NCBI GenBank assembly: GCA_950295325.1
Contig: OX485805.1
Location: forward strand, 20,757,501 to 20,821,500
DNA: 64,000 bases
Source: Polytrichum commune
Taxonomy: Eukaryota; Streptophyta; Polytrichopsida; Polytrichales; Polytrichaceae
Direction: 5' to 3'
This document shows positions 4,864-56,128 of this stretch, in pieces; within the stretch, counting starts at the first letter, position 1; each line of letters opens with the position of its first letter. The notes beneath the pieces are model-generated. The model did no database searches and was not told the origin of the DNA. It was given only the letters and a program-made list of their open reading frames with translations. The translations under genes were made by a program, and so were the position numbers.

Positions 4864-5952
4864 CCCACCCACCCGTAGCATACTACATCCTCCCCCTCCC
4901 ACCTCTCTTTCACAATTCTCCTACTATAGCCTCCGATACACACAACAGAGAGCATCCTCACACACATACATAGGTACCCGAGCAGGCACTCACACTCCCA
5001 CCCAAGCACTCACACACACCTCTCACTGCCCCATCTTACCCACTAGCAGCACAACTCAACCTCTCCCTCCCAACTCTATATTGCACTCCCCCCCAACACA
5101 CCTCCACAACAACTCTCAATTCACAAAGCATACATCATCCCCACCTACCATAGACACCCCCAAATTCCACTCCACTCCATCCATCTCCACCTTCAGAACC
5201 TCCTCCCCTCCACCCTGCTACCAAGCCACACACCCCGCTGCAGAAAACCTATCGCCGGACTAGACAGTTGCCGCCGACCTCAACTGCAACTGAAGCCAGC
5301 GGACACACGACAGTTCTTCACCAACCCACGGCCCACTTGACGAGTCGCCCGCAACGCCGATGCACAAAGCTGATCATCCCCGAACGCCTCCACCAGCAGG
5401 CCCTCCCACACCCATCACATGTGCACCAACAACCATACATTAGCACCCAGGCCGAGACAAAGCCCCAGACCAGCACACATCACGACCCAGTTGCCTCAAG
5501 CCCCGAAAACAACAAGCTACACCGACAACCCAAACACCAATCCGGCAGGCAACCAGAAGCAGATACACGCAAGCAGCTCCACCAACCGCACACAGACTCG
5601 ACCACACAACACCACAACAACACACAGGAGAATACGACAAAGCTGCACCAAACCCGCCATCAACCTGCGCCCACAACAAAACCAACCAACACTTATATCC
5701 CCCATGTAACTCCATAACTAGACCCACTACCACCATGGCTAACCTCAGCCCGAATGCAGGTCCGTCACATCCATAGATAGATAGAAGATAGATAGAAACT
5801 CCGGTCCCTTTTGTCACATCCACCTGCACTCAGTACACAATACAACGAATTTTCGGCAACAAATACAAGCCCAGCCGCCCACCTCACTCCATCCACGTCC
5901 GCCCCAACAAATCACTTCAATCCATGACATAGACGCTGAAGAGGACCTTGAG
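4864..5952 (+). other. 5' region of LINE copy A, CA-rich
   Basis: This stretch is dominated by C and A on the plus strand. It contains a Thr/Gln/His/Pro-rich open frame at 5268-5717 (149 codons) and overlapping frames in other registers. The biased composition explains these frames, and no domain is visible, so I treat it as 5' UTR or the start of an eroded ORF rather than a protein gene. Confidence 0.5.
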
Positions 5953-7959
5953 ATGGATGCACAACTAAAAAATGTGTCCCCGGAACGAGGGAGCAGTTCA
6001 CTCCAACTATCCTACAACCACAACACAAGGCACGCGTCCCAAACAACACTCTCCAAGCCCACCCACACCACCGCGAGCACACCACAAACACTACAATATC
6101 GCAATCCAAGAATGGAGGACGCGTCGGAGAGCCAAACCACCAAACGAAGAAAGGCTGAAGATTACACAGCCACATCAACGCCCATAGCATCAAACAAACC
6201 AACATCAACACCCTCAAGAGGGAGAGCGAAACGGATAGCCACTCTTAGCATCAACATGCTTGGGCAAATGTGGCTAGGATTCCAAATGCAAGAGGCCCTA
6301 GCCACACAAAGGGGCATGAAGGAGTTGAAGGAGAAACGTAGCGATGAAGAATTCATCGCCATGGGCACCCCCACAAACGAAATACAAGACTTCCGAACAC
6401 TCTGTAGAACATTCCCGCGCACCAAACAAATTCTCTTTCCCACCGAGAGGCCGGATGAGGTGCCGGGATAATACCTACACTTCACACAAATTCCCATGTA
6501 CGAGAAAATCTCCCAAGACACGGGTCTCACCGAAGGCTTCCATGTGACCATACGGTTTGACGAAGAATACAAGAAGCTCAACCAGAGGGAGATCAAAACC
6601 GCTTGCATGGAAAGGTTGAAGGTCATGAATGTGCCACTAGGCACCACATACTCCAACCCCCTAGATATTGGCAACAACATGGTTATAAGAAATTGGGCCG
6701 GCTTCATCAAACTTCACCTTCAACACCCAAAGCGAGACGGCTTGGCACTACTCCGGGGCGAAAGAGCATTCGTCATGACTATGGGGGATGGAGAAAGGAT
6801 CATTGGGAAGGTGGAGAAAGGCTTCGAGCTCATCACCAAAGCAAAAAACATGAGATAACATCTCAAAGGTGAAGCGTTTCGTAACAATTTGGCCTTGGAC
6901 ATATTAAGAGCCCTCACGAGAGACTCTTACTACGATGGACGAGAAGTTGAAATCTTATCCCTCACCAAAGCAGACACTGAGAAGGACTTCGCATTCATCA
7001 CACTCACCACCAAAGAATCCAGGGATGACCTCCTCAACAACGGACTCACATACCACTCTGAGTGCCTCAAGGTAAGCAACACCGAAGGTAAGGAGTTGGG
7101 TAACCCATCGGAGCTAAGGATTAGTACCACTCTTGTCGCAAACAACCTCCCCCAACGGGAATCCCAATCAACAATCATTCAAACCCTCAAGAGACTATTC
7201 GGAGAGAACAACATCGCCGGAGTCACGTTTCGACACAACACCGACCAAGAGAATGATCGGCATGCCGGATGGTGTCACATCCAATGCTTCAATGCGGCGG
7301 TTTACACGGAATGGCTACACAAGTCCACCTACATCCTCGGGAGGCAGGTGGACTTCATACCACACAAAGGTAGCATAGACGGCACCGAACCCAACCTAAC
7401 CGCCATTCGACTAGCACAGGCACCCGTGCGGGAGGTCATCGCCCAAAAAGCCCAAGCCATGAGCAACACCGCCGCCACCTTCCCACTAGTGTCAGAGAAA
7501 ACCTTCACCAAAGCCATGAAAGAGCTTGCTGAAACAATGGATGACAAGCTCACTACGCTCACCAACAACATCAACCTCAATACGGATATGTGGATTGAAG
7601 CTTCCACGGACACACTCAAGACCCACGCAACAAACATCCACAACATCATGAGTGCAATGGCCATGGAGTTCCAACAATCGAACCACCGCATCCACAACAT
7701 TATGCAAACCCTCGCCGCCACCTCACCGGATCCCCCCACAGGCCTACCGCAAGCACCGGGACCCAACTTGGCCCACACGCACATGGGAGACAACAACATG
7801 GCCATACTAGCGCCACCGGGATTCCCCAATACCCACTATAGGGGATCTCCTTCAAACCTCCACAAAGGTCAATACCATCCACATGAACTGAACACCACTA
7901 GCATACCTATTGTCGCTATACACGTACATGTTATGTATCCCCTACATATTTATAAATAA
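5953..7959 (+). pseudogene. LINE ORF1 protein (RRM type), two in-frame stops
   Basis: Three consecutive open stretches (5953-6471, 6496-6858, 6889-7959) share one reading frame and are separated only by TAA codons at 6469-6471 and 6856-6858. Both stops can derive from CAA by C-to-T change. The joined frame is about 668 codons. The N-terminal part is basic and low-complexity (KRRKAEDY, SRGRAKR). The middle shows an RRM-like pattern: a TTLVANNLP strand, a helix, GVTFRH, then AGWCHIQCFNAAVYTEWL and GRQVDFIPH, around 7120-7370. A Met/Asn-rich, probably coiled-coil C-terminal part follows. RRM plus coiled coil is a common LINE ORF1 plan for binding element RNA. In the same frame, past the stop at 7957-7959, another 178 codons remain open to 8499. 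Confidence 0.7.
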
Positions 7960-8499
7960 ACAATGCATTACTTTATACAAGGTGGTTACCAAAGGGATTA
8001 CAACTGTTGCATACACACATACAAAAAATATTTCAAACAAATTGGTAACCCCCCCAGAACATCCAACGCCTTGAAATACCAAAACATATGGACACATCCA
8101 CCCTCAAAATACACATGCAAACTATCCCCCAAACAAAGCAAACTAACACCCAACAAGCACCCAAACCCACACATACCCACTAAAATCAAAACTTGCCACA
8201 CATATGCCACACTAGTTGCCCTAACCATAATAATACCCTATACACGTAGTAACACCTCAACCTCACATAATACACCCGTACCCACACCATACCATCACCT
8301 CACCCAACCACATTATCATAAATCTACCATCACTTCCACACACCAAGACCACATACATAAACATAACACACACAACCCCATAAAAATCCAAGTTCAAAGC
8401 AAAACAACCCCACCAATGCCGACCATACCCACCATAAACCTCATAGGTCATATACAATACATAACACACACACACACCTTAAAACCCCAAATAGAATAA
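7960..8499 (+). other. ORF1-ORF2 linker of LINE copy A
   Basis: An open frame of 178 codons (7963-8499) continues the ORF1 register after one stop. Its His/Thr/Pro/Asn-rich translation follows the AC-rich composition and shows no domain. The ORF2 register (frame of 8757) opens at 8367 after a TAA, so the two overlap by about 130 bases. No ATG is visible at the start of the ORF2 frame. Confidence 0.4.
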
Positions 8500-8531
8500 A
8501 CATACATTATTACATTTGGAATAACTCCACA

Positions 8532-8573
8532 CTCATCCTCCTAAGTGGGGATATAAAACCTAACCCGGGCCCA
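8532..8573 (+). other. 2A-like ribosome-skipping motif (LILLSGDIKPNPGP)
   Basis: In the ORF2 frame these 14 codons read LILLSGDIKPNPGP, preceded by YYIWNNST. The 2A core is D(V/I)ExNPGP. Here the acidic residue is Lys (AAA), which a single G-to-A change from GAA would explain. Hydrophobic LLLSGDI-x-x-NPGP stretches near the start of a LINE ORF are known in several animal and protist LINEs, where some have been shown to act as 2A or signal-like sequences. Here it lies about 450 codons (MITE removed) upstream of the endonuclease. Activity is not implied for this copy. Confidence 0.6.
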
Positions 8574-9116
8574 CTCTCACACATCCTAGACAACCTCCCC
8601 CGCGAATTCACACAACGCCAAAAGCAATATTTCATATTAAACACATTAACCCTTAAACCTCATTACATACACCTAGAGGAATTATTCGAACCATACCTAA
8701 TCCAACCAACACATAGCACCCAAAACCAAGAACTACCACACCTACGCAATCAAAGCTTGATACTTGCAATATACCCCATACACTTCCAAATATATGCATT
8801 TATAATAACTTATAGTCCAATCCCACAAGTATGTAACCAATTAATGGCCGAGAACACAAACCAAGGTTGCCTTACCATCCTACAAAGACTACAACAACTA
8901 CCAAGAAACACATACATAGAAAACTATCAAATCACCAACCAAACCTCTCATAACATAACCCCCATAACCATAACGCAAGCATATACACACATAAATGAGA
9001 AAATCGCCAAAGGTGAAATAATAACCATTAACAACCTACAACAAGAACTACCCCACCTCCCTCACAAAATAACCCAAGAACTAATCAAATGCACACAACC
9101 AGTAAGGGGATACTAC

Positions 9117-9823
9117 CAGGGTTGTCTATTGTGTCGTGACGGAGGCTAATCCCGACATAATGTCGTGGCGTCACGACACGTATCTATCACGACATTATGC
9201 CAGATGCCGTCTTTATCCTGACGAACTTGAATTTTACCGTATTTTTTTGTGTAATTACATTACTCCAATCAGGACACGTAGGATTTACGATGTCCACGTA
9301 TGGTGCCATGTCAGCAAAGTAGAGGTAAAGTGGGAAAAAAATTACTAGCGCCCGTCCCCCCCCCCCCCCGGTTCCCCCCGCTCCCTACGTTCCCCTCCCC
9401 CATCCGGCCCTCATCCGGCCTCCATCCGCCCCTCCCCCCCCTAATCCGAACCCCATCCGGCCCCCATCCGGCCCTCCATCCGGCGTTCCCCCCGTCCGCA
9501 TCCGTTCCCGCCCCCGTTCCCGTCCCCGTCCGCTCCCTTCCCCTCCCCCCCCACACCCTCATTTGTCATATTTTACTACTTTGATTTTAACAGAATGATA
9601 AACACAAAGGCAAAATGATTTACCTGGCAAGGGAAATATGCACATCCACGTCGGATTTTTCTGCCACATTGGATGCCACCTTGGCAAGAAGGTAAGTATT
9701 TTACCCACCCTACTAGCTTCCCCCTAGTATGATCCTACGTGGACCCTATTATGTCGTGACGGAGGGGTCCGCCCCGACACGACACGTCATGACGGTGGCA
9801 GGACGTCGCGATAGACAACCCTG
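9117..9823. mobile_element. hAT-type MITE inserted in LINE ORF2
   Basis: The ends are CAGGGTTGTCTATTGTG and its imperfect inverse ATAGACAACCCTG, flanked by the exact 8-bp duplication GATACTAC (9109-9116 and 9824-9831). This is the signature of hAT transposition. Subterminal GTCGTGACGGAGG / CACGACAT motifs are repeated in both orientations at both ends. There is no transposase. The core (about 9350-9560) is an extreme C-rich tract. Excision of the element plus one duplication restores the LINE ORF2 reading frame. Confidence 0.9.
9350..9560. repeat. C-rich minisatellite with quadruplex potential
   Basis: A run of about 14 C is followed by variants of CCATCCGGCCCTC and CCCGTTCCCGTCCCCGTCC. The complementary strand carries many G3-5 runs within short distance, a pattern that can form G-quadruplexes. 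It is internal to the hAT MITE. Predicted proteins on either strand here are low-complexity artefacts. Confidence 0.75.
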
Positions 9824-12778
9824 GATACTACCCCAACACAAACCCAGAAAACATTAACCATACCCAACCTAATAACACTAGTGGGACCAACCACCAAGCC
9901 ACCACCCTAAAAATCATCACTTGGAACACCAGATGCATAAGCTCTAGCCTGCCCGGCATCCATGAACTCACACGCACACTACACACCCACCCACACATAG
10001 TATTCATACAAGAAACTCAAATCCACAAACTCAAATTCACAACATATATAGACCGAAGGTTTCAAAATTATAAAATCATTTATAATAACTCCAACAATAC
10101 AACACACCCACACAACAAATACTCAGGCCCAACCCAAGCCCGAGGAGGGATACTGGCCATGATACCCAAAAATATCTATACAAATGAAAACATTACAAAA
10201 ATACCCACCCCTAGCCCCATATCACCATGCCTCCAAACCATAGTAATTAACAACAAACCACTCACACCAATAATTATCATGAATATGTATATGCCCACCC
10301 ACCCCCAAGACCTACACCTCATACAGGAGATCCAAAACCAAATCCAAACCCTAATAACACAATACCCTACCTACCAAATTATTATAGCTGGAGATTTTAA
10401 CCGTGACATCCTACTCAAAGGTAGAACACACAACGGGATACACCTCCCCCCCAACCAAAATGACCTTGAATGGACCCACTTCACACATAACATAGGACTC
10501 AATATAGTTAACAACCAAAATAGCCACACAAGACAAGGAGGGCTAAATTATACATCAACTAGCCACATAGACGGCTTCTACTCTAACCTCCCCCACCCCA
10601 ACCACCTAAAATGCTACACAATAGCCAACCTCAACCAAAACTCCGACCACTACCCGGTCCAACTAAACCTCCCCCCAAATAGCGTAGTCATTAAAGAACC
10701 AAACCCCCACGCAAGTAACCCACGGATCACGTACCCCATACACCCTGCCAACTTACAAAAACTCCAAACAATCTTCTTGGAAACACAAAACCTAGGAATA
10801 ACTACACTAACAACCACATTACAAACAGAGCAACTCACGCACACACAATGGGAAACCGCACAAAATAAATTCCAAGAAATCATAAATTCTCTAAGTACGT
10901 GCATTGAACAAACATGCATGACACAACCCAAACCCCAACTACCTGATAGAGCAAAAAGGCAAGGCGGATTCCTCCCTAGGACACAACAAAAACTATGGAA
11001 GCATCAACTAAAAATACACCACGGAGCCCGCAAGGCCATCCACGCTACATGACAAAACCCCCAAACATACCTCCAAAACAACCCAAACATCAAAGCTCTA
11101 CAACTTATAAAAAATATCAATATACCACCCCTCCCCATAAACCCCATAGACCTCACAAAATGGATAGTAGAAATAGCCAACGTCGGTAAAAAAAACTAAC
11201 GAAGAAGCCCACAAAATCACCACCAAACAAACCGCAATAAATTGCAAAAACGCCATCACGAAATACAGAGCACTCCTAAGTTAAAAACCCAAAGCAGTCC
11301 ACAAAAAGATATTTCACCTAAAAACCGATAACTCTCTCGACTGCCTAAAAACCCACCAAGGCCAAATCCTCACAAACCCCACAGACATAGCCAACGAAAT
11401 ACATCACACACAACAAACATCCTTCCAAAGACAAGCACCCCTATGTGAAGAAATCACGGATCATCCAGTCATATGCATGTGTGCAGTACGAAAATACCCA
11501 TGGCATACACACAATGGTATTATACTAGAAAAGAGAGGTCCTCCAAACACACAAATATACAATCACTTCACTAGAGAAATATATGACACATGCATTCAGA
11601 GACTTACACGTGGGAAAGCCCCCGGACCGGATAACATCCCCAACGACATAATTAAAACACTACCACCACAATGGCACGACCTACTTTTCGTATTCTTCAA
11701 ACAATGCTATAAACAAAAAGAAATACCAACTTATTGAAAACACAGTAAAACCATCCTACTAAACAAAAAAGATGACCCAATCTATCTCGCCAACTACATA
11801 CCAATTGCCCTAACCAACACAATATATAAACTCTACACGAGCACCATAACACATAATGGAGCCATACGCAACCTTAGCACATTCATAACAAAAGAGCATG
11901 AATCTCCTGAGACGCTAATAGCCAAACATAAATTCCCGTATGTCGACAAATGGCTATCAAACGAACAAATAAACCAAAAATTATCTAACCACTTTTGGAT
12001 AAATGACAAAATAACTGACGCACAAATCACACAAACACTATAATTCAAATACGCTCAATATATGGGCAACCACAGGAAAAACATCTTTTGGCTCCTCACA
12101 CACCAAAACCCCAACTGCACCCTATGCCACAAAAATGACAGAGACACCTAGCCCCACCTTTTATCAACATGTGAACACCCATACCTAAAAGGACTAAGAA
12201 TTGCAAGACATAACAAAGCGCTACACCTCATCACCCAAACGCTCCAAACCAACAAAAACACTCGTTACTTCACACTAACCAATGCAGGAAAACATAACAA
12301 CATATTACCAGAACAAACAATCCCCGATTGGCTTATTAAATGCTCATGCCAACAAATGCCATGCAACTGCCAAGCTAAATTAAGACCGGGCATCCTATGC
12401 ATAATCAGTGCACCCAACCATGCACAAACGCCCATATCGCCTTCCTCAACACACACAATCCAATTTATTGAATTCACATACTGTCATGACAGATTCCCAG
12501 AACAATCAATCACCCGTAAACACACGAAATATGACCCATTAATAAATACCATACAAAACAATGGATGGAAGACCAACCCCATCATTACCATCAAAGCTGG
12601 AGTTAGAGGAGCCATTCACGAACACTCCATTGGAAAACTAACCCAACTAAAAATCCCTAAGTCCAACATCAAATTCCTTATGAAACATATTCACCAAAAC
12701 GCCATCAAATACCTCACATACTTAGTTCTAAATAAAAGGAAACTAGATAACAAACAAACACCCATCTCCCCGCCTTAG

Positions 12779-12937
12779 TAAGGTTAGATATACTTAATGT
12801 TACACCAGAGCCCACCTCCCCACGGAGGCGAATCACCTTATACTGCATCACGGAACACTGTGATCAATACAAGGCTAATGGGCTCACATTCACGCTGGTA
12901 TAAAAGTACGGGCGTTAATTTTTCTTTTCTTTTCTTT
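12779..12937 (+). promoter_or_regulatory. LINE 3' UTR with conserved hairpin and TTTTC tail
   Basis: After the RLE stop, the sequence GAGCCCACCTCC..GGAGGCG is followed by ATCACGG-AACA-CTGTGAT, a 7-bp stem with a 4-base loop (12847-12864). The tail is TTTTTCTTTTCTTTTCTTT. Copy B has the same arrangement, and its stem has changed bases while keeping pairing. A conserved 3' hairpin is the expected recognition site for the element's own reverse transcriptase. The function is inferred. Confidence 0.6.
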
Positions 12938-13574
12938 GTGTGAGAGATTCAAGTTTCCTCAACCCGTCGTTCAAAAGGTGTATTAGTTTTCGATGTCGTC
13001 CGTCACATTGGAAGGCAAAAAGATAAAGAATAACAAACAACTTGTGACATGAAATGAAGGTGGACCCATCAATAAGGATTGCACGAAAATCCTCCATAAA
13101 TCGGGGCGGCAGTAAATTTGCCGTGCCTTTCGAGCCACTCCGCATCCTTATACCATAACTTAAACTAAGATATTGGGTTGGATAGTTTGCAAGTAAAGTT
13201 GAGTGTGGGAGGGAGTGAGGCTGAATGCTGATATTTTGTGCATGCCGTGCAGGCCGGGAGAGAGGGGGGGGGGGGGGGGTCTTCCTACATCACTTCTGCT
13301 GCAACAACACCCTCAAGCATGCCAATGCCAATGCTTGATAATTTGCATGCTCCATGCGGACCGTGAGCTAAATGCTACTCTCATGCAAATGAATTTAGTA
13401 AGATAATTTATGCTCCGATGTGATGGAATGAAATACATCACATAAGTGTGTAGTTTGGTACAAGATAGGAGGAGCATTTGGGTGGGGATTTGTGGTATTC
13501 AAGTAAAGTCATCCAGTATCAAAAGGAAAAAAAAGGTATACGAGTCTATGAAGAGGTTCAGATGGAGCTTACTT
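12938..13574. other. Spacer with a 16-base G run
   Basis: No gene is recognisable. A homopolymer of about 16 G lies at 13264-13279. Short open frames on both strands (12915-13145 minus, 13203-13406 plus) have no motif or homologue I can name. Confidence 0.4.
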
Positions 13575-25932: not shown

Positions 25933-27859
25933 CTGCTTGGTCTGGAAGATTCATGAAACTGGTTTCACAAACTCATGAAATCGATTTGGAAGACTCATGA
26001 AGTGGCTATAGACAAAGGCCCACTGTCATGAAATTGAGGTGTGCCACGTGTGAAGTTGATTTAGAAGAACAAATGACCAACTTAATTAGAAGATTCATGG
26101 AATTGGTAGAACACTCCAATAACATGAATCGGAAAGTTCATGAAATAGCTTGGAACCTTCGTGAAATTGACTTTGCACTTCCGTGAAGTCATGTTACCCA
26201 AGGAAGGAGTAAATACTGGCAGCATTAATTGCTGCATGTTGATGCCCTTCTTCAAATGTCTTCGCGGTCGCACCCATTATTATTATTGTTATTATTGCAG
26301 TTTGTACGTAAGTAGTACCTCTAGCTACTGGCCACTTTCTTGATAGATTGCAGTGGCAGAAGACTAAGGATTCATGGCACCCGTGTTGGATATGTGCCCA
26401 CTGGTCACACTTTCACCCACCTCTATGGCCGTACTAAGCATGCATACAGAAAGGCTTCTGTAGTTAAGAATCGCTTGGATTTACACCGGAGTTTCGGTGA
26501 GGAGTTGGTTGTTTTGCATGAGATTTTTTTTTTCTTTAATATTTTGTGGGTTTTTGGTATATGCTTGGAGTGGGTGTGGAGGTTTAAAGACGTGACGTTT
26601 TATATTGATTGAGTTTGGTCCCCAATGAACTTATATATAATGTTTTTTGTTGAAACCTCCACACCCACTCCAAGCATGCACCCGTAACTTACCACATATG
26701 GAAAGTTTTGCATGCAACACAACCAATTCCCGACCAAATCTCTTTGTTATAATTAATGGATGACTTAACATATAAAATGGATTGGGGTGGATTTATGGCT
26801 TTTTGAAGTCTTACATAACATCATTCAACCTATCTTGCAAGCTTCAGGGGCCTAGGAATTTCGGGGGACATTTGCACCCTTTATTCCTAGAGGATTCCCT
26901 ACATGTTTCAAATTCAGGCTTGATATTGTGCAAATGTGTAGTAGATGACATCCAACTTAGATGACATCATGATCGTATATCATATAATGTTTCTCGTGTT
27001 CTTTTGGAAAGAGGACTTCCACTAGATGCTATGAATAATTTTATGTATATGATCATGTTCTTGACATTATTGCATAGTGACGGTACATTCTCTTTCCAAA
27101 GCCAATGATCACACCTAGTAAACCCATACTTCAATAAGCAAGTTTGATGCAGTTCCCCCACCCCCCCCCAAAAAACCAAAAAAAAAAATCAAAAATCTTT
27201 GAATATGGAAGAATAATATGATAGTATATGATGTTCATAATTGGATTATACCACGCAAATTCCTAGACTCATGAACAACCTGGATATGTTGAGGGTATAC
27301 GATGTAAATGTTCCATTGCTAGTCCTTTTCCATGATGTTAAATATTTGCTTGAAATACTCAGGAGTGCAAATAAATAAAAATTACAAGCGGATGAAATGA
27401 TTGAGAAACGATAGATTTGAACAATCTATCTATATATGGTAAATTTGAGTTGGTAGGTTATTCATGAGAACTTTCATCGAGCTCACCAAAATTGATAAGT
27501 CATCATTTGAATTGTAAGTACATTTTAGGGAAGACTTTTTGAAGTTACATTCAAAATTAATATATTATCCATTGAATTTATGGAGACTTGGAAGAGATCA
27601 TGTAAGAATATAAAATCTTTTTGTACATGAGGTGTAACAAATAAGCATGTGTGTAAGGTTGGCTATTGGACTCCATGTGAACAATGAAGTACTTGCCAAC
27701 TCCAGCTCTTATGTATGCCTTGCTCTTTTTGGATATTAGATTTATGAAGGATATTCATATTAGATTATTAACGAAATGAAGTTGGGTTGTTGTACCGCTA
27801 GAATTATTTGCAAGTTTCATTGAGCTAAAAGTGGATATCATAAATTCACTCAACCAACA
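25933..27859. other. Spacer, no gene seen
   Basis: AT-rich sequence with short unsupported frames. Its one clear structure is the inverted repeat at 26550-26690, listed separately. Confidence 0.4.
26550..26690. repeat. Inverted repeat (hairpin) around 26556-26585 / 26653-26682
   Basis: ATGCTTGGAGTGGGTGTGGA is followed about 70 bases later by its inverse, TCCACACCCACTCCAAGCAT, with AACC/GGTT extending the stem. The loop is AT-rich. No target duplication is evident, so this could be an inverted duplication or the remnant of a foldback element. Confidence 0.7.
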
Positions 27860-30434
27860 CCATTCAATAGAGAAGCACCCGTATGCAATGATCCCATGAA
27901 TGATCCCCCATCATGACATTGTGCAATTCGTAAATACCCATGGCACAACCATAACGGCTTCTTATAGAGAGAGAAAAAGTTCAATCAATTATAAAATGTT
28001 GGCAAACTTGTCTAGAGAAGTATAGAATAAATGCCTTCAAAACTCGTTAGAGGTAAAGCTCCAGGATCGGACAACATCCCAAATTAAATACTCAAAACAC
28101 TACCACCAACTTTCAAAGACATGTTCTATCTCTTCTTCCAACGATGCTACTACCACAAATACATCCCAACCTTTTGAAAACACATCAAAACAATACTATT
28201 ACACAAAATGAATGACCCATTACCAATCGCCAACTATGAACCTATTGCACTTGCTATCACAATATATAAACTAAGGTAGTCGAGGCTAATATGGACACCT
28301 CAAACTCTTCTGTACATGCATTTGTGGTAGTCATTCAATCTCACAATTTTTAGGAAAGCAATAGTCTTATAGTGAGTTCATTTGACACGGACCTTGTGCA
28401 GTGTGACAAGATAACTACAACTATTATCGATAGTGTTGCATCCAATAACCCGTTTTGTCTCTTTACCAAAGCCTAGGGCACTTTCATATGGTCAATTATC
28501 TCATGTTAATTTTTTTGTACTGTAACTTGAATTTTTAGTGCAATCACACTTGCAAGGTTTTCAATTCTCTTAATGAGAATTTTAATTATAGTGTTAGACA
28601 ATGGTCTTTTTACATGGTCTCAACCCAAGTAACTAAGTGCCATCTCAATTCCCACCATCAACCAAGACCACAAAGTTTGTTAAGGGTAATATGATTACTT
28701 AATATACCCTTTAAAACTTTGCGTATGTATATATTTATACTTTCATCATATTAAACAACCACCATTGCGAATTTTTTGAGAATATAATGTAATTCACTAA
28801 AGTGAAATAATTACTTGGATCTATGATATCCAAGTTATGTGCAACAAATGTGTAATTGGTTGGGGGGTATTATCTTGCTAACATGATATTAATGACCTAT
28901 TCAATTAGGTCATTTTTAATTAAAAATATTTTGTCGTTTTTTTCAATTACTTTGAAACTTTGGGATTAGTCATTTTCATGTACCATATGTATGTTATAAA
29001 TCAACAAGTGGTTGGTCAGAAGAATGCTATGCCCTACGATTATCCTTACAAGTGGGCAATTCTAGTTGGTTTTCTCACAAAGACCAAAATTTGGCGCATT
29101 TCAATAACCATCTCAAAAAGCATAGCCAATAATTCATTGCAATGTGGTTTAGCCTCAAAGCAATTTTACAAGTTACAATACATAATCGATACACACTCAA
29201 GAGCAACAAGAAATGCAAAAGCATAAACCTATCACACCCACACGCAAAGGATGGAAATCATACTTGCATATTTATTCATGTGAAAACCATACCATTAGTA
29301 GCCATAGTAGCCATAGTACAACATATTTACTGGACCCCATACACAATTCACTTACATAAAGTACATGCACACTCGGGAATTATAGGCAACAAAATCGCTA
29401 ACACATTAGCCAATGAAGGGACTCTTAAAGATAAACCAAATAAAACACCACACATACATACAGCTCATCCCACACCGTACTGGCTAGCTAGTTGCCCAAC
29501 CGCGACATACGACGGGGCCATCCGTAACCTCCACACAACTATAACCAAAGAACATGGAACTCGCGAAGCGGCAATAGCCAAAAGCAAATTCCCATGCGTT
29601 GATAAATGGCTATCAAATGACCAAATGAACCACAAACTCTCCAATCATTTTTGGAAAAATGAAAAAACAACATATGCACAAATATCTCAAACTCTAAAAG
29701 TCATATTCGCTCAATACATGGGTAACCATAGAAAAAACATCTTCTGGCCACACACACACCAAAACCCCAACTGCACATTGTGCTATAAAAATGATAGAGA
29801 CACATGGCCGCACCTCCTCTCAATGTGTGAAAACCCCTACCTCAAGGGCCTAAGAATTTCCAAACACGATAAAGCGGTGCATCTCATCACACAAACACTA
29901 CAAGCTAACAAGTATACCCGCTTCTTTACACTAACCAACACCTGTAAAACCAATAACAAACCCCCGGACCAAACAATCCCATAATGGTTACTCAAATGCA
30001 CATGCCCACAAGCCCTTTGCCAATGCCATGCCAAACTCAGACCAGACATCCTCTGCATAATCGGAGCCCCAAACCATATACAAACACCCATGGCACCATC
30101 CCCCACAACTACAGTCCAACTCATAGAATTCACATACTGCCATGTCAGATTCCCAGAACAAGCCATCACACAAATACACACCAAATACAACCCACTAATT
30201 AACACTATACAAAAGAATGGGTGGAAAACCAACCCCCTTATAACCATCACAGTAGGTGTAAGAGGAGAAATACACGAACATTCTATCGAGAAACTAACCA
30301 ACCTAAAAATTCCTAAAAACAATATCAAAACCCTCATGAAAAACCTACACCACAATGCCATTAAATACCTCACCTACCTAATCCTAAACAAAATAAAACT
30401 AGATAACAAACAAACACCGGTCCCCCCACCATAA
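27860..30434 (+). pseudogene. LINE ORF2 remnants: RT start, RNase H end, CCHC, RLE (copy B)
   Basis: The RT piece near 28045-28270 reads VRGKAPGSDNIPN and later NDPLPIANYEPIAL..TIYKL, with several stops. From about 29220 one frame runs to 30434 with a single TAA at 29982-29984. The RNase H C-terminus reads IHLHKVHAHSGIIGNKIANTLANEG, the usual H-x-G-x-x-x-N pattern. A linker with the KWLSNDQMNHKLSNHFW motif follows. The CCHC finger is at 29770-29830 (C-x2-C-x9-H-x4-C). The RLE has C-x-C-x5-C-x-C-H, then KLRPDILCII, VQLIEFTYC and THTKY-like KYNPLINTI, i.e. a PD-(D/E)xK-type arrangement. Confidence 0.75.
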
Positions 30435-30599
30435 TGAAATTGGATTAATATTACACCTACCAAGAGCCCACCTCCTAACAGAGGCATGAATCCCTTGCTG
30501 CATCATGGCACACCGTGATCAGCATAAGACCAACGGGCTCATATTCACGCCGGTATTTAGATACGAGCGTCATTTTTCTTTTCTTTTCTTTCTTTCTTC
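30435..30599 (+). promoter_or_regulatory. LINE copy B 3' UTR with conserved hairpin and tail
   Basis: It contains CCTC..GAGG, then ATCATGG-CACA-CCGTGAT (30502-30519), then TTTTTCTTTTCTTTTCTTTC. Compared with copy A the stem has exchanged a C-G pair for T-G and a G-T pair for G-C, so the 7-bp stem persists despite substitutions. Confidence 0.6.
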
Positions 30600-33782: not shown

Positions 33783-35817
33783 CAGTCTAACCTTGATAAT
33801 GTCACCCTTGTTAATGGGACACCTTGATACTGTCACCTAAAAGTTTGAAACCGATTTTCTTAGTGTAAAACTCCCTCGTTATTATCCCTATCACCCTTGT
33901 TAATGTCACTATTTTTTTCCAAAATCCGTAGTGTAAATGTGATAATATCAAATATGGGTGGATTGTATGTGATGGTTGGATGGACATATTGTAGTAGCCA
34001 AAAGGGTCATGAGCCACCCCTGTGATAAATGCAATGTTATTCAAAGGGTCATGAGCCGCCTCTGTGCACCAACCCTGAACGGTGCTGTCTATACACGGCA
34101 CTCAAAGGTGTTGTCTTTGACGGCGCTGCCAAGACTTCTTGGCCTCTATGCACCCCACCTTCCGTCACATGTGTTCACCTATGTGTCTTTGAGGGTTTCA
34201 GCTTGTGTGAAGTAATTTAGGATGTTAAGTTCTACGGTTTAGCTGAGCTGGTACAGAGTAGTGTCGACTTAAGCTAAATTAGTTCAATTGGTTTGCAATG
34301 TAGAAATCTCAAGATATGTGGCACGGTCTTCACTGTTTCTATAGTCAATAGTCGCATAGGAGAATCTAGTAAGATCCTGAAGACATCTTCAATTTTGATG
34401 AGACAGGTTTGTATTATAAAGCCTCTCCTTGCAAGACTTTGAATATTGGGAAGGCAAAAGGAAATAAAAAGAAGAAGGACCGTGTGACATTGGGGCTTTG
34501 CACTAATATCTCAGGGAAGGAGCGATTGAAGCTTGTTTTCATTCACAAATCAACACGTCCCAGATGCTTTCCTCGGAAGTTTGATCCAAATAGTATAGTA
34601 CACTATTATTCTAACAATTCAGCCTGGATGAATGGTGATGCTTTTACACATTGGGTGAAGAGTGAGAACCGAAGAATGGCATTGCAAGATAGAAAAATTT
34701 GCATTATTATGGATAATGCAGGAAGCCATGATATTCATGGTGAGGTCAAAAAAGTTATAGATGGATTTAATGCTTTTGTACTCTCCCATATCACTATATT
34801 GTTTCTTCCACCAAATGTGACTTCAGTTGTTCAGCCTTTGGATCAAGGAGTGATTGCAGCATTCAAAATGTGCTATAAACGCAAGCTTGTTGCCTGGACT
34901 TTGCAACAAATTGATAACTCAAATGAAGATTTGGGGAAACTGAATGTTGATCTATTTCAAGCAATGCTATGGTGTGTGGCGGCATGGCATGAATTAGATG
35001 ATCAAACCATTAGAAATTGTTGGAGAAAGTCTGCCATATTGCCTGCAGCATGGAATGCATATATCAACAATTCTGATGAACGTATGAAGTCCAAAATGGA
35101 GGAAGCAGCTTTGGAATTGGGCAATCTCATCGCCGCATTGAATTTGGGTTTGGATGTTGAAGGCAAGCCTATAGAAAAGCTTAGTCCTTTAGAGTACATA
35201 AACATGGAAGGTGAAGATGATTTTGAGGTGGAATATTCTACTGAGGAGCTTGTGCAATTAGTGCAAGATGGCGAACATGTACTTGATTCCATGGAAGAAG
35301 ACCCATTGATTGTTAATAGCAATGATGATGAGTCTAAAGTAGTGAAGCTAAGCGATGCACAAAAATATGCTAAAGATGTTTTGAATTTTATGGCTAGCCA
35401 AGGTTCTCAGATTTTCAACACTCATGAGTTGTTAGGAATGGAAAACATCCATGACAAACTCATTAGAATTGGTGTTGGACATTTAACATCACTAAAACAA
35501 TGTGACATTAGAAGCTTCTTTGTCTCTAGTGAGAGGTCTTTACCTGATCTCAATGACACATTGTGATGTGCTCATGTTGTTATTCACAATTTTGAATTAT
35601 ATTTTACATTCAAAAACATTGAAGTCTTGTGTTTGTTTTTTTTTTTTTTTTTTTTTTTTTTACATTGTAATTTCATTTTGATTTTCTACCTTTTTTTTTT
35701 TGATAATATCACATTATGCACAAATCTTCAAAATGTGACATTATCAAATATGTCACACCTTGTTTATATCACACTTTATGGTGAAACGGATGGTGTGATA
35801 TTATCAAGGTTAGACTG
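33783..35817 (+). mobile_element. pogo/Tigger-type DNA transposon, internally deleted
   Basis: The ends are CAGTCTAACCTTGATAATGTCAC and the inverse of GTGATATTATCAAGGTTAGACTG. A TA dinucleotide flanks each side (33781-33782 and 35818-35819), the hallmark of Tc1/mariner/pogo insertion. A DDE transposase frame fills 34373-35566. Additional GATAATGTCAC / GTGACATTATC motifs occur just inside both ends. The 590 bases between the left end and the open frame do not encode the expected helix-turn-helix DNA-binding region, so the element is a deleted copy. Confidence 0.85.
34373..35566 (+). pseudogene. pogo/Tigger-like DDE transposase, N-terminus missing
   Basis: The frame is open from just after a TAA at 34370-34372 to a TGA at 35564. 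It starts directly in the catalytic domain: IFNFDETGLYYKASP carries the first Asp, ICIIMDNAGSHD the second, and LPPNVTSVVQPLDQGVI the third. These are diagnostic for the DDE_1 superfamily shared by pogo, Tigger and CENP-B-derived proteins. The C-terminal third is acidic (EGEDDFEVEYSTEELVQ). The N-terminal CENP-B/HTH DNA-binding domain is absent and there is no good start codon, so the product would be inactive as a transposase. The ~400 codons without internal stops suggest a fairly young copy. Confidence 0.8.
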
Positions 35818-44320: not shown

Positions 44321-47160
44321 TCATGCGGGGTCTTCGAGATCATTAATAGTTTGTCGATTTTCTAGCCTATGTTTGTGGACTAGTATGGAGTGTGCATATT
44401 GTGTGGAGATTATGTTAATTTGTTTAAACGTGTTTTTGATTTTCGTAATGGGGATTGTGAGCGTTGATTCCAATTTTTTCATTGATGGGATATGTGTTGT
44501 GCCTCTTGCTCCTGCGACTAGTACCATGAGTGGCGCTACATTCCATCCCTTGGCTATGATGTCGTTTATGAGGGGTTGGTATGTTGTGTTTTTTCTGTCT
44601 AAGGTTTCCATGGCGAATCTATCATTGCAATATGTGAATTCGATGAACTGTAGCGTGATATCGGGTGTAGGGATTTCTGGGGGGGGGGGGGGGGGGGTTA
44701 TATGGATGGCCTATAATGCATAATAAGTTTGGCTTGAGCCTATCGTTGCAATGACATCTCTGGGTATCGCATGTACATGGGAGTAACCATGGGGGTACTA
44801 TGTTTTCTTGGGGTAGTTCTTGATGTGTTCCTGCATTCATTAATGTATAATGTCTTGATATACGGGTTGATATAATGAGTTTGCGTATTTCCCATACCGC
44901 TTTGTTATGTCTTTTTGTTATTAGTGCATGAATGTGTTGTTGTTTGCATTTAAGTAGTACATGTAGCCATGTATCCGCATCTGTTGAGTTACAAATGGGA
45001 CATGTTCTTGATGGGAAGGCTTCTCTGCCAAAGAAAAGTTGTTTCCGGGCGTTTCCCATATATTGTCATGTGCATAATTTTATTAAGCATGTTTTTTGCT
45101 TATCTGTGATGACGGGTGTGAGGCCAAACCCACCACCCTTTAGCGTCCTAGTCCGGGTGATGGTTTTGAGAATCACATTCACTTCATAACACCAAATGTA
45201 GATTGCTATGTAGCTCTCATGTCCAAGGTACTCACTTCATCTTAACTCAACTTGCTTTATTATTTTGAGCCTCTTGGCTCGTGGTGGAATTTGATTTTTC
45301 AAGGGTCCAACCCGCGGCCTTGGCCACGCATGCCCTTAAAGAGATTCTCCTTGCACCCTTGGTTTTGACTTCCTTTGTTTGGCCATCACCGGAGTCCTTA
45401 ATATTGTCCATCAACTCGTGCACTTAATTTAGTGAATAGAGAAGTCTCAAGTGTTCAAAAACACTATTCTCTCTTCCCAATGTTAGGTACACTTAGTCAC
45501 ACCCAACCACACACACAACCCTACTATAATGAGTTCAACTATTCATCTTTTTTATGTTTTACTTGAGCTATCTCCTAAATGCAACCATTAAGTGGCTCCT
45601 TTGTGTGACCAGTTTAATCCTAGCTTGATTAATGCAGCTTCCACTAGTTAAATGCTTCGGCAGTTTGAGTAGTCCAGTAAGCCTTAGCTACCGGTAATCC
45701 CAGTAACCCGGTGCAGTCCAGCCAGCCTTCGCTGCCGGCAATCCCAGTAACTCGGTGCAGTCCCAGTAAGCCTTCGTTGCTGGGCAGTTCAGTAAACCGG
45801 TGCAGTCCAGTTTGGTTCTCAGCTAGGACCTTGACCCAACTCCTTCTACTAAGTATTTAAACCCTAAGCACTCACTAATCCTAAGAATGTAAGAACAACC
45901 AAGACTAAGCTAGCTTTAGACTAAATTAACCATAAGCCTCTAGCATCTAAGAACTAATGATCAATGAACTAGTGCCCAATTGACTAAACTTCTGTGGGGT
46001 TAAAAATCCTAAACCACATGTGACCCACTAATCACACATGCTCCCCCATGTGTTCCTACACACCTTCACACTCAAGAGAGTGGAGGATGAGCAAACTTGA
46101 AGAGAGAAAAGAGAGAGGAAAAATGAAAGAGGGAAGTCTTAAGTAGCCAAGAGGGAGGGAGGGAGATTGAGGTAAGGATAGGGTGAGGGAATTAGCACCT
46201 CCAATCACAACCCCTTAACCCTTTCCTCCTAAGTAGGGACTCATCCCATCCACAAGGCCTTTCCCTTCCTAAATCAACAAGGTGGATCCTAATGTAGGCA
46301 TTTAACCCGCGGAGCTCACCTTGCCTCACCTAGCTCCATACTCACCTAGTCAAGGCATTCCCTCGTTGAACTTAAACCTTGAAACAATCACACAACACCA
46401 CCTAATGTCTAAACTTAAATCCACACCACACTTCACTCTTTTTATATTTTTGTGAACAATCATAACACTTCAAAGTCTAACTAAAATTGGTTTCAAAGAG
46501 TTAATCACCACATGTGGGCACCATTTTGGGCTCACAACGGGGTTTGTCCAAAAGTCGTTCGATAGTGTTTTGTCTATGTCGTCATTTTCTAGCCATTTAT
46601 GCAATTGGTGCGTTTGACTTGCAATAATTGTTAAGTTATGTTCATTGTCATTCTTAAAAGTGTGTTTACTAAGGTGTCTAATGGGGCCTTTGTCAGGTGT
46701 TTCTTGCATGGAATGCCACCAATCTTTTTGTAGGTATTATGGTGTGGGGTGTGCATGCTCGTGTGGGGTTGCGGCATCTCGATGATCTAATTCCCGTCCT
46801 TGTTTGTGTGTATGCTTGTTCATTTTCCCCTATGTTTGTGTGGGCCTTTATTTTGTGGAGTGTGGTGGTTTGTGTGCGAGATATTAACATTTTGATCATG
46901 TTTTCTAGGATTATTTTGTCCGGGTGACTGTTATGACTAGTGGGGTGTTTGATTTGGGTGTTCAGTAGGTATAGGATACTTAGGCAATCTGTGAATATGT
47001 GGGTTGGCTCATTTTTGTATGTTGTGGTGAGGAGTTGGAGGGTGTGGTGTATGGCCATCATTTATGCGCGTAGGATATTCTACAGTCCCGGTAATCTTAC
47101 TGCAATTTTTAGGTTCTTGAAAGGGTTATAAATACCATATCCGGTATTTTCCCGTCTTCA
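44321..47160 (-). pseudogene. LINE ORF2 C-terminal part: RNase H, CCHC, RLE (copy C)
   Basis: The RNase H region (about 47150-46760) shows GYGIYNP, VRLPGL.NILRA.MMAIHHTL, IFTDCLSILYLLNTQI and LHKIKAHTNIGENEQA, the expected E, D and H-x-x-x-x-N blocks. The final Asp is replaced by Tyr. The frame then gives HKWLENDDIDKTLSNDFW, is cut by the solo LTR, and resumes with QYMGNARKQLFFG exactly as in copies A and B. The CCHC finger is TCPICNSTDADTWLHVLLKC. The RLE shows LKPNLLCII (PD changed to PN) and, after the Pro-rich and poly-C tract near 44690, TTYQPLINDIIAKGWNVAPL. A stop and a frameshift separate the last two parts. Confidence 0.7.
45117..46536 (-). mobile_element. Solo LTR inserted in LINE copy C
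   Basis: The element starts TGTGAGGCCAAACCCACCAC and ends CACCATTTTGGGCTCACA. The 5-bp duplication ACGGG is exact (45112-45116 and 46537-46541). Length is 1420 bp with no internal coding. A tandem repeat of about 58-bp units (CCCAGTAACCCGGTGCAGTC) lies at 45657-45830. It splits the LINE between the NDFW motif and the CCHC finger, so it is younger than the LINE. Confidence 0.95.
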
Positions 47161-47188
47161 TTGTCTATTATTTGTTTATTTGGGAGGT

Positions 47189-47455
47189 TTGAATGCAACT
47201 AAGTCTAATATATTTTGATTAATCCTAATTAAACCCAATTAAATCAGAAAATATGCTTACCAAATTAATTATGCCTAATTAATCATAAATTATATTTACT
47301 GGAGTTAATTCCATTTAAATCATGACTAATTCCAGTAAGTACATTTTATAATTAATTAGGGTTAATTAATTTGGTACGCATATTTTCTGATTTAATTGGG
47401 CTTGAATACGATTCATTAGGATTAACCAGAATTTATTAGACTTAGTTGCATTCAA
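47189..47455. mobile_element. Foldback / MITE-like inverted repeat, 267 bp
   Basis: TTGAATGCAACTAAGTCTAA at the left is mirrored by TTAGACTTAGTTGCATTCAA at the right. The arms continue inward for about 125 bases (ATTAATCCTAAT, AAATCAGAAAATATG, TTTACTGGA) with mismatches, leaving little loop. No flanking duplication is clear. It is AT-rich, non-coding, and sits upstream of the RNase H of LINE copy C. Confidence 0.7.
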
Positions 47456-48013
47456 TCTTACTTTACTAGTTCAAATGCGTATGAAAACTTTGTGATTGTG
47501 GAAGGTATTAAATATATATTATAATATTAAATAGTATAGTATAGCATATACTATACTATACTATACTATATTTAAAATAAAATAAATAAATCATGAATTT
47601 TAGTTTCATTTTAGAATGACAAGGTCCCTTTCAATTGTAAGTGACAAAAATTATAACCTCGGTATTAATGAGGATTTTGTAATGTTTTTGACTTCCAAGT
47701 TAATTGCATGCTTTATTGACGGTTTCACTTTGAAAATGAAATCTAGTCAATTGCTTATTTACTCAATGGAAGTGAACGTATATATTGGATTGGAGACCTT
47801 GAAAATGAAGTGCACTCAATATGGGATTTGTGGACAAGTAGCCTTCAAAAATGCAAGTACACTAGTTTTTTCGAAATTGGGCGGGCGGGCAGCAATTTTC
47901 GGTCGGGTGCAGAAAAAATGTCGGGGGGCTTTCCCATAAAGAAGGATGACGTTTTCAGTGTCATCCGCGGGGCCTTCATCCCCCGAAGGTACGAGTGTAG
48001 GTGCTGGTTCACC

Positions 48014-49361
48014 CTAGCCGGGTTGGTTGGGGTTTGGATGGTCAACGGGGGGGGGGTAGGTGAGTTTGGTCCATTTTGTATTGTGGTTCACTGGGGTGTC
48101 TAGTGGTGTTAGTGGTGCAACTTGGCAAAATATTTCGGGGATACCTAATGTGTTGGCAATATCTTGCATTTGTTGGGTATGGGTCTCTGTTCCTATGGGA
48201 GTATTCCTATGATGTATGCATATTATTTGTATGGCTCGGTTTTCTGTTCTAGGTTCGGTTCTTAGTTCTAGAGGTATTGTTGGTTCTTCGTAGATGATGG
48301 TATCAGCTTTGAAGTGGGTGATAACATGCGAATCTGGAAAAGGACCATTATGAGGATTGGGATTATGATACCAGTTTTCGTCTGGCATTACTAGTATTGT
48401 GGTAGAGCTTGGGTCGTATTTGGTTGCTAGGCGGGCCCAATGTAGGGCTTGTTGAGTTTCGGTATTTGTGTGTGGGTGTGCGTGGTCATTGCCGTGCCAT
48501 TTATGTTGGAATGCCTTGCCTACTGATCCAAAGACTGCATCTCTAGGAAATGGGAAGTGGAATTGTCTAAGTGTAGTGGGACATGTTACAGGTGAGGAGA
48601 AGTATGAGTGTGTTATTTGGAATGTGTTTATGAGGTTTTCAAAGATGGTATTTGGGAGCACGGGGAGGTCACTCCATTGTCAAGTTGAACACCACGTGTG
48701 ACCAAAAAAAATCTTCTTTTGGTAAGTTGCACCACCAAAATGGGTCAAAATTTTATCAAATTTTTTTCATGAGTAGATATACACAATACCTATGACATAG
48801 TTGAGATTGGTAACTAAATTTGATAATTTGTTTTTTTCATAAAACATACCGTTTCTAACTAGAATGACACAGAATTGAACTAAAAAATTTACTAAAAAGA
48901 ATAAAGATGACTAAAAATTTCAAAAATATATACAAAAGATACTATCAATGGTTATGTATATGTAGAAAAAATATCATAAATTTTAAAATTATATATGGCA
49001 TGTAATATAGGGGTAGCAAACTTTGTCCGCACGTGGTGTCAACTTGACAATGAAGTGACCTCCCCGTGTTTGGGAGTGTGTATTGCAAGAGTTTGAGGGG
49101 ATCGTTTTTGGGAGTTTTGTATTTATACCTTTGGTATAGCCATGCTACTTTAGTTTCGAATGGTTGGGTGGGAGGCTCAAGGTTGTGTGGTCTATTTAGT
49201 GCTAGTTGGTATTGGGTCCATAACCATTTTAGTCTTGTTTCGGGGATGGTGATCAACTGTCGTCGAGTGTTATCATATATGTGTGCATTATCATATTGGG
49301 TTTGGATAGTATATTGTGTGCATGCGATGTCATCTTCCGGGTTGCATTCGCTGGTGTGCAC
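48014..49361 (-). pseudogene. LINE copy C, methyltransferase-fold-like domain
   Basis: Two frames (49361 down to about 49069, and 48658 down to 48014) become one when the MITE is removed. The join is marked by the LPNT duplication. Visible blocks are FETKVAWLYQRYKYKTP, then THSYFSSPVTCPTTLRQF, FPRDAVFGSVGKAFQHKWHG, HPHTN, QQALHWARLATKYDPSSTTILVMPDENWYH, and a beta-rich end (AIQIICIHHRNT). The order F.SP...FG...AF..KW.G..(NPPY)..A...A......LV.P.W recalls the DNA N6-adenine methyltransferase-like fold seen in PCIF1 and in some retroelement proteins. The NPPY/F motif is HPHT here, so catalysis would be lost in this copy. The family call is by eye. The frame ends at a stop at 48014. Confidence 0.5.
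48659..49068. mobile_element. MITE (CACGGGG family) inserted in LINE copy C
   Basis: The ends CACGGGGAGGTCACT and AGTGACCTCCCCGTG are inverse. The inverted region extends through TTGTCAAGTTGA / TCAACTTGACAA to CACGTG. The flanking 8-bp duplication TTTGGGAG is exact (48651-48658 and 49069-49076). The 410-bp interior is AT-rich and matches the copy at 49987-50394 over most of its length. Confidence 0.9.
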
Positions 49362-54907: not shown

Positions 54908-55914
54908 ATATACACCAGCCTTTTTTGTGGTGGCTAAATATAGCCACATGACGAAAAATTATGAGGGGTGACGAAAAGCCATAAGGGTTTAAGGCCGCCT
55001 TCTGGTGTCTCAGTCGCCACTCTGTCCACTCGCCACTCTGCGCCATGATAACCCCGCCCACCTGGATGTCTCGCCCTGCCAACTCACTTCGCCGCGAACC
55101 TGCTCGCTGAGGTGGCGCCACATCGCGCCCTAAACCTCTCCCCACTTCGACTCCCTCGCCAGCTATTCAATCTGTCTCTCCAGTAATTCGCCCAGTAATT
55201 CTGCCACTCTCCAGTAATTCGCCTGTTTTGCGGCACTAAGTACAGCCTTCTTCGCCAGTAACTTATGCCCTCCTTACTGCTTTCATCGCCATCCTTTGTG
55301 TTTTGGGTGGAGCCTGCAATTTGTCATTGGCTAATGGAAACATTCCATTCACTGCACATTCACCCTGCTTCTTGAATCTTGGGAGGGTGTTGTGAACTTG
55401 TGACTGTTGTCGCAATCTGTTGACTGTTGAGGGTTTCATTCATGAGAGGGAGGAGTGGGAGGAGTGGTGGTCCTGGTGGAGTGAGAGCAAGGCGGAAGGA
55501 GTGTTGCTAGCTTGCTAAGAACTTTGATTGTGTGCAATCTGTACCTGGCATTGTGCAACCTGCTTGACGGCAACTGCAATGGAGACCTGCATTTTCTGTG
55601 AACTTATTAGAAGGGAGACTCAAAACCCTCCATCCCCCAAGTTTTTGTATGATTTCAGTTTGCATTGTCCATTCTTGTGTCAAGACTCAATGCGATATGT
55701 TTGGTGATTATGTTTGTTCCTGTTGAGTATGTTTGGAGCTTATTATCTTGGTGATTGAGTTTGTGCAATATTGGTGATTATGTTAAATCTTGCTGATTGT
55801 GTTTGTGAATTCTTGGTGATTGTTTGTGAGCATCTTCGATTCTTGGTGACTCAATCTTGCTCACTCAATCTTGGTGACTCAATGTTGGTCACTCAATCTT
55901 GGTGACTCACTCAA

Positions 55915-56075: not shown

Positions 56076-56128
56076 CGCGACTCGCCACGGGCAGCTTGTG
56101 CACAACACGTCGCAAGGTGAATAACGGG

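Follow-up and report, generated by a model that had tools for sequence, protein, structure and literature searches.

The window analysed here is the whole stretch of 64,000 nucleotides spanning positions 20757501 to 20821500 of one contig (OX485805.1) of the Polytrichum commune genome assembly GCA_950295325.1, which amounts to 408 Mb in 64 contigs, nearly all of it in seven contigs. It contains copies of a non-long terminal repeat (non-LTR) retrotransposon, or long interspersed nuclear element (LINE), whose second open reading frame (ORF2) encodes two endonucleases, in contrast to the single one of most related elements: one of the APE type and one C-terminal restriction-like endonuclease (RLE), together with a reverse transcriptase (RT) and RNase H. 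Besides the window, we read 17 copies from the genome (E1–E5, L011–L020, L037 and L038); F1 and F2 designate the full frames of L011 and L038, respectively, each with its upstream pieces. The window copy termed copy A comprises the following features:

5.92–12.94 kb, + strand: copy A as a whole, a decayed non-LTR retrotransposon, by homology to full genome copies
5923–7957, + strand: remains of ORF1 (frames 5785–6471 and 6859–7959), 76% nucleotide identity to ORF1 of E2/E5
8126–9113, + strand: end of the ORF2 leader, 2A-like motif and N-terminal domain preceding APE, 81.8% nucleotide identity to E1 5403–6389
8547–8573, + strand: 2A-like motif GDIKPNPGP, read in the sequence
9118–9822, no strand assigned: nested terminal-inverted-repeat element of 705 bases (AGGGTTGTCTAT / ATAGACAACCCT), interrupting ORF2
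9832–10680, + strand: APE endonuclease domain, over the Pfam cut-off and with its motifs
11285–11851, + strand: start of the RT, with KAPGPDN at 11615, by homology to E1
12116–12172, + strand: CCHC knuckle with a stop codon within it, from the sequence
12152–12778, + strand: RLE, from genome-wide RLE matches, with KX2KY, RHNK and GW present
12779–12941, + strand: 3′ untranslated region hairpin and T-rich tail with CTTTT repeats, homology to E5 ending at 12941

The first-pass annotation of this DNA had placed an APE domain and an RLE in one ORF2 of copy A. Both domains are there; the frame is not continuous, being broken by a stop (11050–11052), frameshifts, the stop within the CCHC knuckle, the nested element and a deletion. 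The APE motifs that it had pointed out are found as IITWN (9913), QETQ (10009), GDFN (10390) and SDHYP (10642), and window positions 9832–11052 score over the Pfam cut-offs of both Exo_endo_phos_2 (37.9 bits, cut-off 27.4) and Exo_endo_phos (26.3 bits, cut-off 24.5). The deletion, of 3.4 kb, is located at about 11850 and has removed most of the RT through RNase H: E1 6384–8411 aligns to 9823–11851, and E1 11820–12898 to 11849–12927. Because of this deletion, the CCHC knuckle and the RLE follow directly upon the RT start. The RLE includes LRPG (12380), IEFTYC (12467) and KHTKY (12518), the catalytic PD being PG in this copy (D changed to G). Homology to E1 halts at 9113 and restarts at 9823, around the nested element, which is flanked by the direct repeats GGATACTACC of 10 bases (9108–9117 and 9823–9832); the length of these repeats suggests a Mutator-like miniature inverted-repeat transposable element. 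Copy A has the look of a mosaic, its ORF1 being closest to E2/E5 (76%) and its ORF2 to E1 (82–88%).

Part of the genome copies show the arrangement in an open frame. In eight of the 17 (E1, E2, E3, E5, L011, L013, L037 and L038), APE, RT, RNase H and RLE are encoded in a single stop-free frame of 2123–2924 amino acids; E2 lacks part of the RT and keeps the frame. The whole frames of L011 (F1) and L038 (F2) encode 2919 and 2924 amino acids, respectively, and the nine other copies have stops or shifts between the parts. The domain order in ORF2 is APE-RT-RNase H-CCHC-RLE, which supports the consistency of order that had been proposed from the window copies. ORF2 of L011 and L013 is only 42–43% identical to that of E1; therefore, at least two old families share this layout. 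We then compared the positions of both endonucleases across the genome. The RLE query gave 6071 first-look candidates, 150 of which were scored (all with E ≤ 3.9e-103), and the APE family PF14529 gave 402 candidates, 150 of them scored. At least 50 of the 150 listed APE matches have a listed RLE match 1.5–9 kb downstream on the same strand, a figure that is a lower bound because both lists hold 150 scored matches. The spacing is 5,048–5,919 bases in 47 of the 50 listed pairs, and the upstream and opposite-strand controls gave 0 and 0 pairs. The possibility, entertained in the first-pass annotation, that APE and RLE never occur in the same element is contradicted by these frames and pairs.

With respect to the host, the genome contains LEAFY (four matches over the cut-off among six candidates) and RALF genes (five matches among ten candidates). 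Both families are characteristic of land plants and their close relatives, and the host of this dual-endonuclease lineage is therefore a land plant, as had been suspected, perhaps a bryophyte to judge from the smallness of the RALF set. A scan of viral contigs for RLE relatives gave 96 pattern matches, none of which could be confirmed.

RVT_1 and RNase_H score over their Pfam cut-offs in all five copies scanned, RNase_H with E values of 1e-16 to 2.4e-12. For the APE domain, Exo_endo_phos in L011 reaches 25.7 bits, narrowly above the cut-off of 24.5, and Exo_endo_phos_2 in E1 reaches 31.2 bits (cut-off 27.4). The C-terminal region was analyzed in an alignment of nine copies. The four CCHC residues (C61, C64, H74 and C79) are invariant in all nine rows, and so are R-H-N, P-x-I, the E of QFIEFTY, K-x-x-K-Y and G-W; the D of the PD is present in eight of the nine. 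According to PMC5678591, the marks of LINE RLEs are a KX2KY motif, its first K being catalytic, and a CCHC of the form CX2-3CX7-8HX4C, and an RH pair is situated at the first helix of the R2Bm RLE. Compared with that description, the CCHC, the RH at the first helix and KX2KY of R2-type RLEs are all found here; the knuckle has the spacing CX2CX9HX4C, in which X9 exceeds the published X7-8 by one residue, and G-W stands in place of the G-X-W described there.

The RT of L011 has R2 as its best match in PDB (7.6e-34), LINE-1 ORF2 chains reaching 1.9e-19. Two RT trees were obtained, the first with 12 copies and the second with 10 (E4 and L012 also dropped), E2 and L020 (short RT matches) and L018 (no row) being absent from them. 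In both trees, three plant L1 elements of this genome form a group with full support that excludes the copies, and the copies are also separate from two R2 sequences; the position within ordinary plant L1 that the first-pass annotation had considered is thus not the one obtained. In the 10-copy tree, the copies come together with support of 80/98 and R2 joins L1 with 98/95. Constraining the copies with R2 or with L1 gave approximately unbiased (AU) test p values of 0.037 and 0.030, these being weak tests with one long shared outgroup.

APE and RLE are both under purifying selection. Over 45 unfiltered pairs of 10 copies, median pN/pS was 0.269 for APE, 0.188 for CCHC-RLE, 0.228 for a PCIF1-like region described below and 0.130 for RNase H; for the RT it was 0.129 (21 pairs). 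Higher medians correspond to the linker gap3 (0.574) and the N-terminal domain (0.512). This set, drawn from 15 copies, omits E4, L012 and L016, near-duplicates of kept copies, as well as L011 and L013, which belong to the other family, and keeps some close relatives (L015/L018 and E5/L020). Unfiltered pN/pS was preferred over dN/dS, for which a dS filter left few RT pairs (4). From the pN/pS values, both nucleases are maintained, under weaker constraint than the RT and RNase H. In the second family, the comparison of L011 with L013 gives a dN/dS of 0.15 for APE (0.245/1.641) as well as for RLE (0.243/1.573), at a dS of 1.6 that is near saturation.

Several copies are nearly identical: E3 and E4 share 98.58% identity over 11,892 bases, and L012 and E3 share 99.15% over 7,619 bases. 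On account of this near-identity, we infer recent movement. At the 3′ end, a hairpin-like stretch precedes a T-rich tail that contains CTTTT-type repeats. Window copies A and B have this tail, and so does each of 11 genome copies inspected, that of E1 being short. Flanking direct repeats measure 14 (E1), 12 (E3), 8 (E4) and 11 (L012) bases. The 14-base word of E1 exceeded those of all 200 shuffles, and the 12-base word of E3 those of all 100; the shared word of E4 reaches 12 bases only when four tail letters are counted, and the 11-base repeat of L012, whose flank is repetitive, was read by eye. No common target sequence was seen by eye in 13 3′ flanks. From the 5′ repeat to the ORF1 ATG there are 59 (E1), 60 (E3), 54 (E4) and 16 (L012) bases, and these 5′ leaders differ among E3, E4 and L012 despite 98.6–99% identity elsewhere. 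The 35 bases that close the E3 leader occur at high copy number: of 40 scored matches (578 candidates), 39 are elsewhere; the E4 leader has no match elsewhere in the genome. Use of heterologous promoters or template switching could account for such variable leaders.

Three further parts of the element, namely an ORF1/ORF2 overlap, a 2A-like motif and the PCIF1-like domain, had escaped the first-pass annotation. That annotation had proposed an RNA recognition motif in ORF1, which found no match in Pfam, nor in PDB by sequence or profile; ORF1 probably encodes an RNA-binding protein. The ORF1 stop overlaps the ORF2 start as ATGNNTAG in five of six copies (E1, E2, E3, E5 and F2), and E4 has the same octamer. 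As the ORF2 ATG overlaps the ORF1 stop, ORF2 is probably translated by termination-reinitiation. Further downstream, 14 of 17 copies (E1–E5, L011–L016, L018, F2 and window copy A) retain an intact GD(I/V)xxNPGP, L037 being excluded from this count as a locus that begins downstream. The 2A consensus is D(V/I)ExNPGP; its E is K, H or Q in some copies, and the motif otherwise appears to conform. Six copies (E3, E4, L012, L013, L015 and L018) carry two NPGP motifs each, which stem from duplication of the 2A region, the two E3 stretches being 71% alike. Counting from the ATG overlap, about 430 (E1) or 560 (F2) amino acids of ORF2 precede the motif. In E2, the stretch that leads from the closest upstream stop to the motif contains no in-frame Met; therefore, a decayed leader or another start has to be assumed. 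Read by eye, the ORF2 leader (E1 from 4553, F2 from 3173) opens with a hydrophobic segment that resembles a signal or membrane segment and lies upstream of the 2A-like motif; this segment could direct a released leader to membranes. Sea urchin APE-type LINEs also have a 2A-like ribosome-skipping sequence, located in the N-terminal part according to PMC4981915. The presence of such a motif in the N-terminal part of a LINE protein is thus shared; it differs from that account in that the motif lies about 430–560 amino acids into ORF2 here (E1 and F2), and in that two tandem copies of it occur in the six copies mentioned.

The PCIF1-like domain is situated between RT and RNase H. PCIF1_WW scores over its Pfam cut-off of 31.1 in three of the five copies scanned (L011, L037 and L038) and under it in E1 (25.7 bits) and E2 (27.1 bits); genome-wide, it gave 697 candidates, and all 150 that were scored are over the cut-off. 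The NPPF motif of PCIF1 has a catalytic role. In an alignment of 18 rows from 17 loci (F1 being the L011 locus and one row being window copy C; L037 not included), SSP-x-TC, RD-x-x-FGS-x-G and HWAR are kept in all 18 rows and NPPF is present in none, HPPN, HPHx, HPKD, FPTD or YPTD being found instead. The domain thus shares with PCIF1, the cap-adjacent m6Am methyltransferase, the PCIF1_WW region and the SSP-x-TC and FGS-x-G stretches, and differs from it by the replacement of NPPF, a motif named as such for PCIF1 in PMC8868631. It is probably a catalytically dead methyltransferase domain kept by selection, the loss of activity being suggested by the replaced motif. The AlphaFold model of the domain, from a single row, is unusable (predicted local distance difference test score, pLDDT, 34.0). 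Between the RT and this domain, residues ~1413–1445 of E1 ORF2 (KWGAQAIRRTYLCQWQ...) resemble a chromodomain, an assignment that is a guess and that has no Pfam support. Among the open-licence papers listed in our searches, we saw none on a PCIF1-like domain in a LINE.

Other pieces of the same kind of element are located in the window:

455–2368, − strand: fragments of the RT-to-RNase H region, by homology
27840–28288, + strand: RT fragment, possibly part of copy B, by homology
29303–30597, + strand: copy B, with the end of RNase H, CCHC (29772), RLE (LRPD 30036, IEFTYC 30123) and 3′ tail
44330–49361, − strand: copy C, of the second family (L013/L011 type), in pieces, by tblastn of L013 ORF2 (62–76% identity)
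48017–48679, − strand: PCIF1-like methyltransferase domain of copy C (Pfam PCIF1_WW, 1.1e-6, 28.8 bits)
44579–45002, − strand: CCHC and RLE of copy C (CPIC 45002, IEFTYC 44644, KNTTY 44593), from the sequence

An RNase H preceding the CCHC-RLE module had been described for copies B and C. In copy B, the end of RNase H, the CCHC and the RLE were recovered; copy C is longer than had been indicated, extending from 49.36 to 44.33 kb, with unmatched sequence at ~46523–45138 and further gaps. The PCIF1_WW score of copy C is slightly under the cut-off of 31.1, and the domain aligns with 17 rows from 16 other loci. Two further stretches of the window were judged by eye only: an ORF at 34373–35566 looks like a Tigger/pogo-type DDE transposase, and broken ORFs at 55850–59579 look like a hAT-type transposase.

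Among known elements, Dualen/RandI is described as carrying APE and RLE in one element together with RNase H (PMC4640811), and PMC3747384 gives (ATT)n or (CTATTT)n as the 3′ repeat of green-algal RandI. Our picture of Dualen draws on PMC4640811, PMC3636483, PMC3747384 and PMC8226300, and the comparison is by description only. On that basis, the element is like Dualen/RandI in having both endonucleases, RNase H and a 3′ simple repeat that is not poly(A), and unlike it in its land-plant host and CTTTT-type tail and perhaps also in its 2A-like motif and PCIF1-like domain. With R2 and other RLE LINEs it shares the nearest RT in PDB, the CCHC knuckle and the KX2KY and RHN marks; those LINEs have a single ORF and no APE, whereas two ORFs, with APE upstream of the RT, are found here, and no common target such as that of R2 was seen by eye. 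The plant L1 elements of the same genome (L024–L026) share, by eye, an APE-like N-terminus upstream of the RT, and differ in their separate RT branch, their zf-RVT C-terminus and, by eye in these three elements, the lack of an RLE. This genome also contains ordinary L1-type LINEs that end in zf-RVT, with 141 matches among 150 scored of 322 candidates.

The reading that we favour, with a probability of about 0.75, is that the copies constitute an autonomous non-LTR retrotransposon family of a land plant, recently moved, which would be built and would work like Dualen/RandI. As predicted from its sequence, an RNA of ~12 kb would encode ORF1 and an ORF2 composed of leader, 2A-like motif, N-terminal domain, APE, RT, linker, PCIF1-like domain, RNase H, CCHC and RLE, ORF2 being started by reinitiation at ATGNNTAG. 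A ribosome skip at the 2A-like motif would probably free the leader of ~430–560 amino acids from a polyprotein of ~2,300 amino acids. Insertion would proceed by target-primed reverse transcription: one endonuclease would nick the first strand, the RT would copy the RNA from the 3′ hairpin and CTTTT-type tail, RNase H would remove the RNA, and the other endonuclease would probably nick the second strand, leaving target duplications of 8–14 bp. Beyond this, we tentatively propose, at odds somewhat below even, a new land-plant clade of dual-endonuclease LINEs with a 2A-split polyprotein, in which APE and RLE would nick the two strands and a captured, dead PCIF1-type domain would be retained by selection to recognize RNA (the cap) and so keep the protein attached to the mRNA that encodes it.

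Several observations weigh against this interpretation. One hundred of the 150 listed APE matches are without a partner among the listed RLE matches, and L037 and L038, copies of family B, have no Pfam APE match at E 0.5; the APE of these two copies is recognized by motifs and homology, L038 nonetheless keeping IITWN, QETKL, GDFN and SDHYP. F1 is without the ATG overlap. A perfect 2A-like motif is missing from three of the 17 copies (in L019 and L020 the final P is lost, and L017 yielded no motif), and in E1, E5 and L013 the motif is cut off from APE by a shift or stop. The RT outgroup, one group II intron, is on a long branch and the deeper order of the trees is unsettled. With regard to the RLE, no Pfam RLE family matches any of the nine members, and DUF2043 matches four of them weakly (best E 4.2e-5), just upstream of and over the CCHC, its score in the member shown being under the cut-off. 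The best match of the RLE profile in PDB is a weak one, and the AlphaFold model of the RLE, obtained from window copies only (five rows), is poor (pLDDT 47.6). Thus, for the CCHC and PD-(D/E)xK-like RLE of the first-pass annotation, the knuckle and the sequence marks of an RLE stand and the fold is not confirmed.

These last points, together with a zf-RVT match in one of the nine members (E 0.31) and the zinc region found likewise at the C-terminus of the plant L1 elements of this genome, are what would be expected from an ordinary plant L1 whose C-terminal CCHC region is merely RLE-like. We consider this very improbable and rejected an L1 origin on the RT trees, which place the copies outside the three same-genome L1 elements. 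The greater proximity of the L011 RT to R2 than to LINE-1 in PDB, the RHN, E, KX2KY and PD (the latter in 8/9) that are LINE-RLE marks in PMC5678591, and the identity of the weak PDB match (E 0.41), which is the C-terminal part of R2Bm, also argue against it. That an APE LINE and an RLE LINE had become nested or fused by chance could be supposed from copy A, which is broken and rearranged, its parts being separated by a nested insertion as well as a deletion. This is hardly credible for the element as such, and was rejected upon finding open frames that hold both domains in at least two families; the regular APE-RLE spacing with its empty controls and the selection on both domains point in the same direction.

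A different question is what each endonuclease does. One of them may cut the target and the other be kept for another job, the RLE for instance as a structure-specific or branch-resolving enzyme, with APE as the sole first-strand nickase. The lack of a common target in the 3′ flanks, unlike R2, is consistent with this, as is a comparison of hidden Markov models linking the R2 endonuclease to Holliday-junction resolvases (PMC3636483). Nothing speaks directly against it, selection on both domains fitting either arrangement, and we hold it to be rather unlikely. As to descent, we lean towards the family being a true Dualen/RandI member that was passed down from an ancestor shared by green algae and land plants, over an independent assembly. 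The same pair of endonucleases with RNase H and the non-poly(A) 3′ repeat, as given in PMC4640811 and PMC3747384, favour it; against it stand the unsettled RT position and a comparison with Dualen by description only.

The published examples of Dualen that we found are from green algae, plus LINE/Dualen repeat annotations in cryptophytes (PMC12747079), and among the open-licence papers listed in our searches we saw no report of Dualen in a land plant. Nor did we find there, for a dual-endonuclease LINE, a description of the 2A-like motif or of the PCIF1-like domain devoid of NPPF; both would be novel components of such an element. Dualen has been cited as evidence that APE LINEs originated by replacement of the RLE with APE (PMC4640811). 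The near-identical copies and the selection on both endonucleases suggest that the dual state can be stable and not just a fleeting intermediate, and how the two nucleases share the work becomes directly testable.

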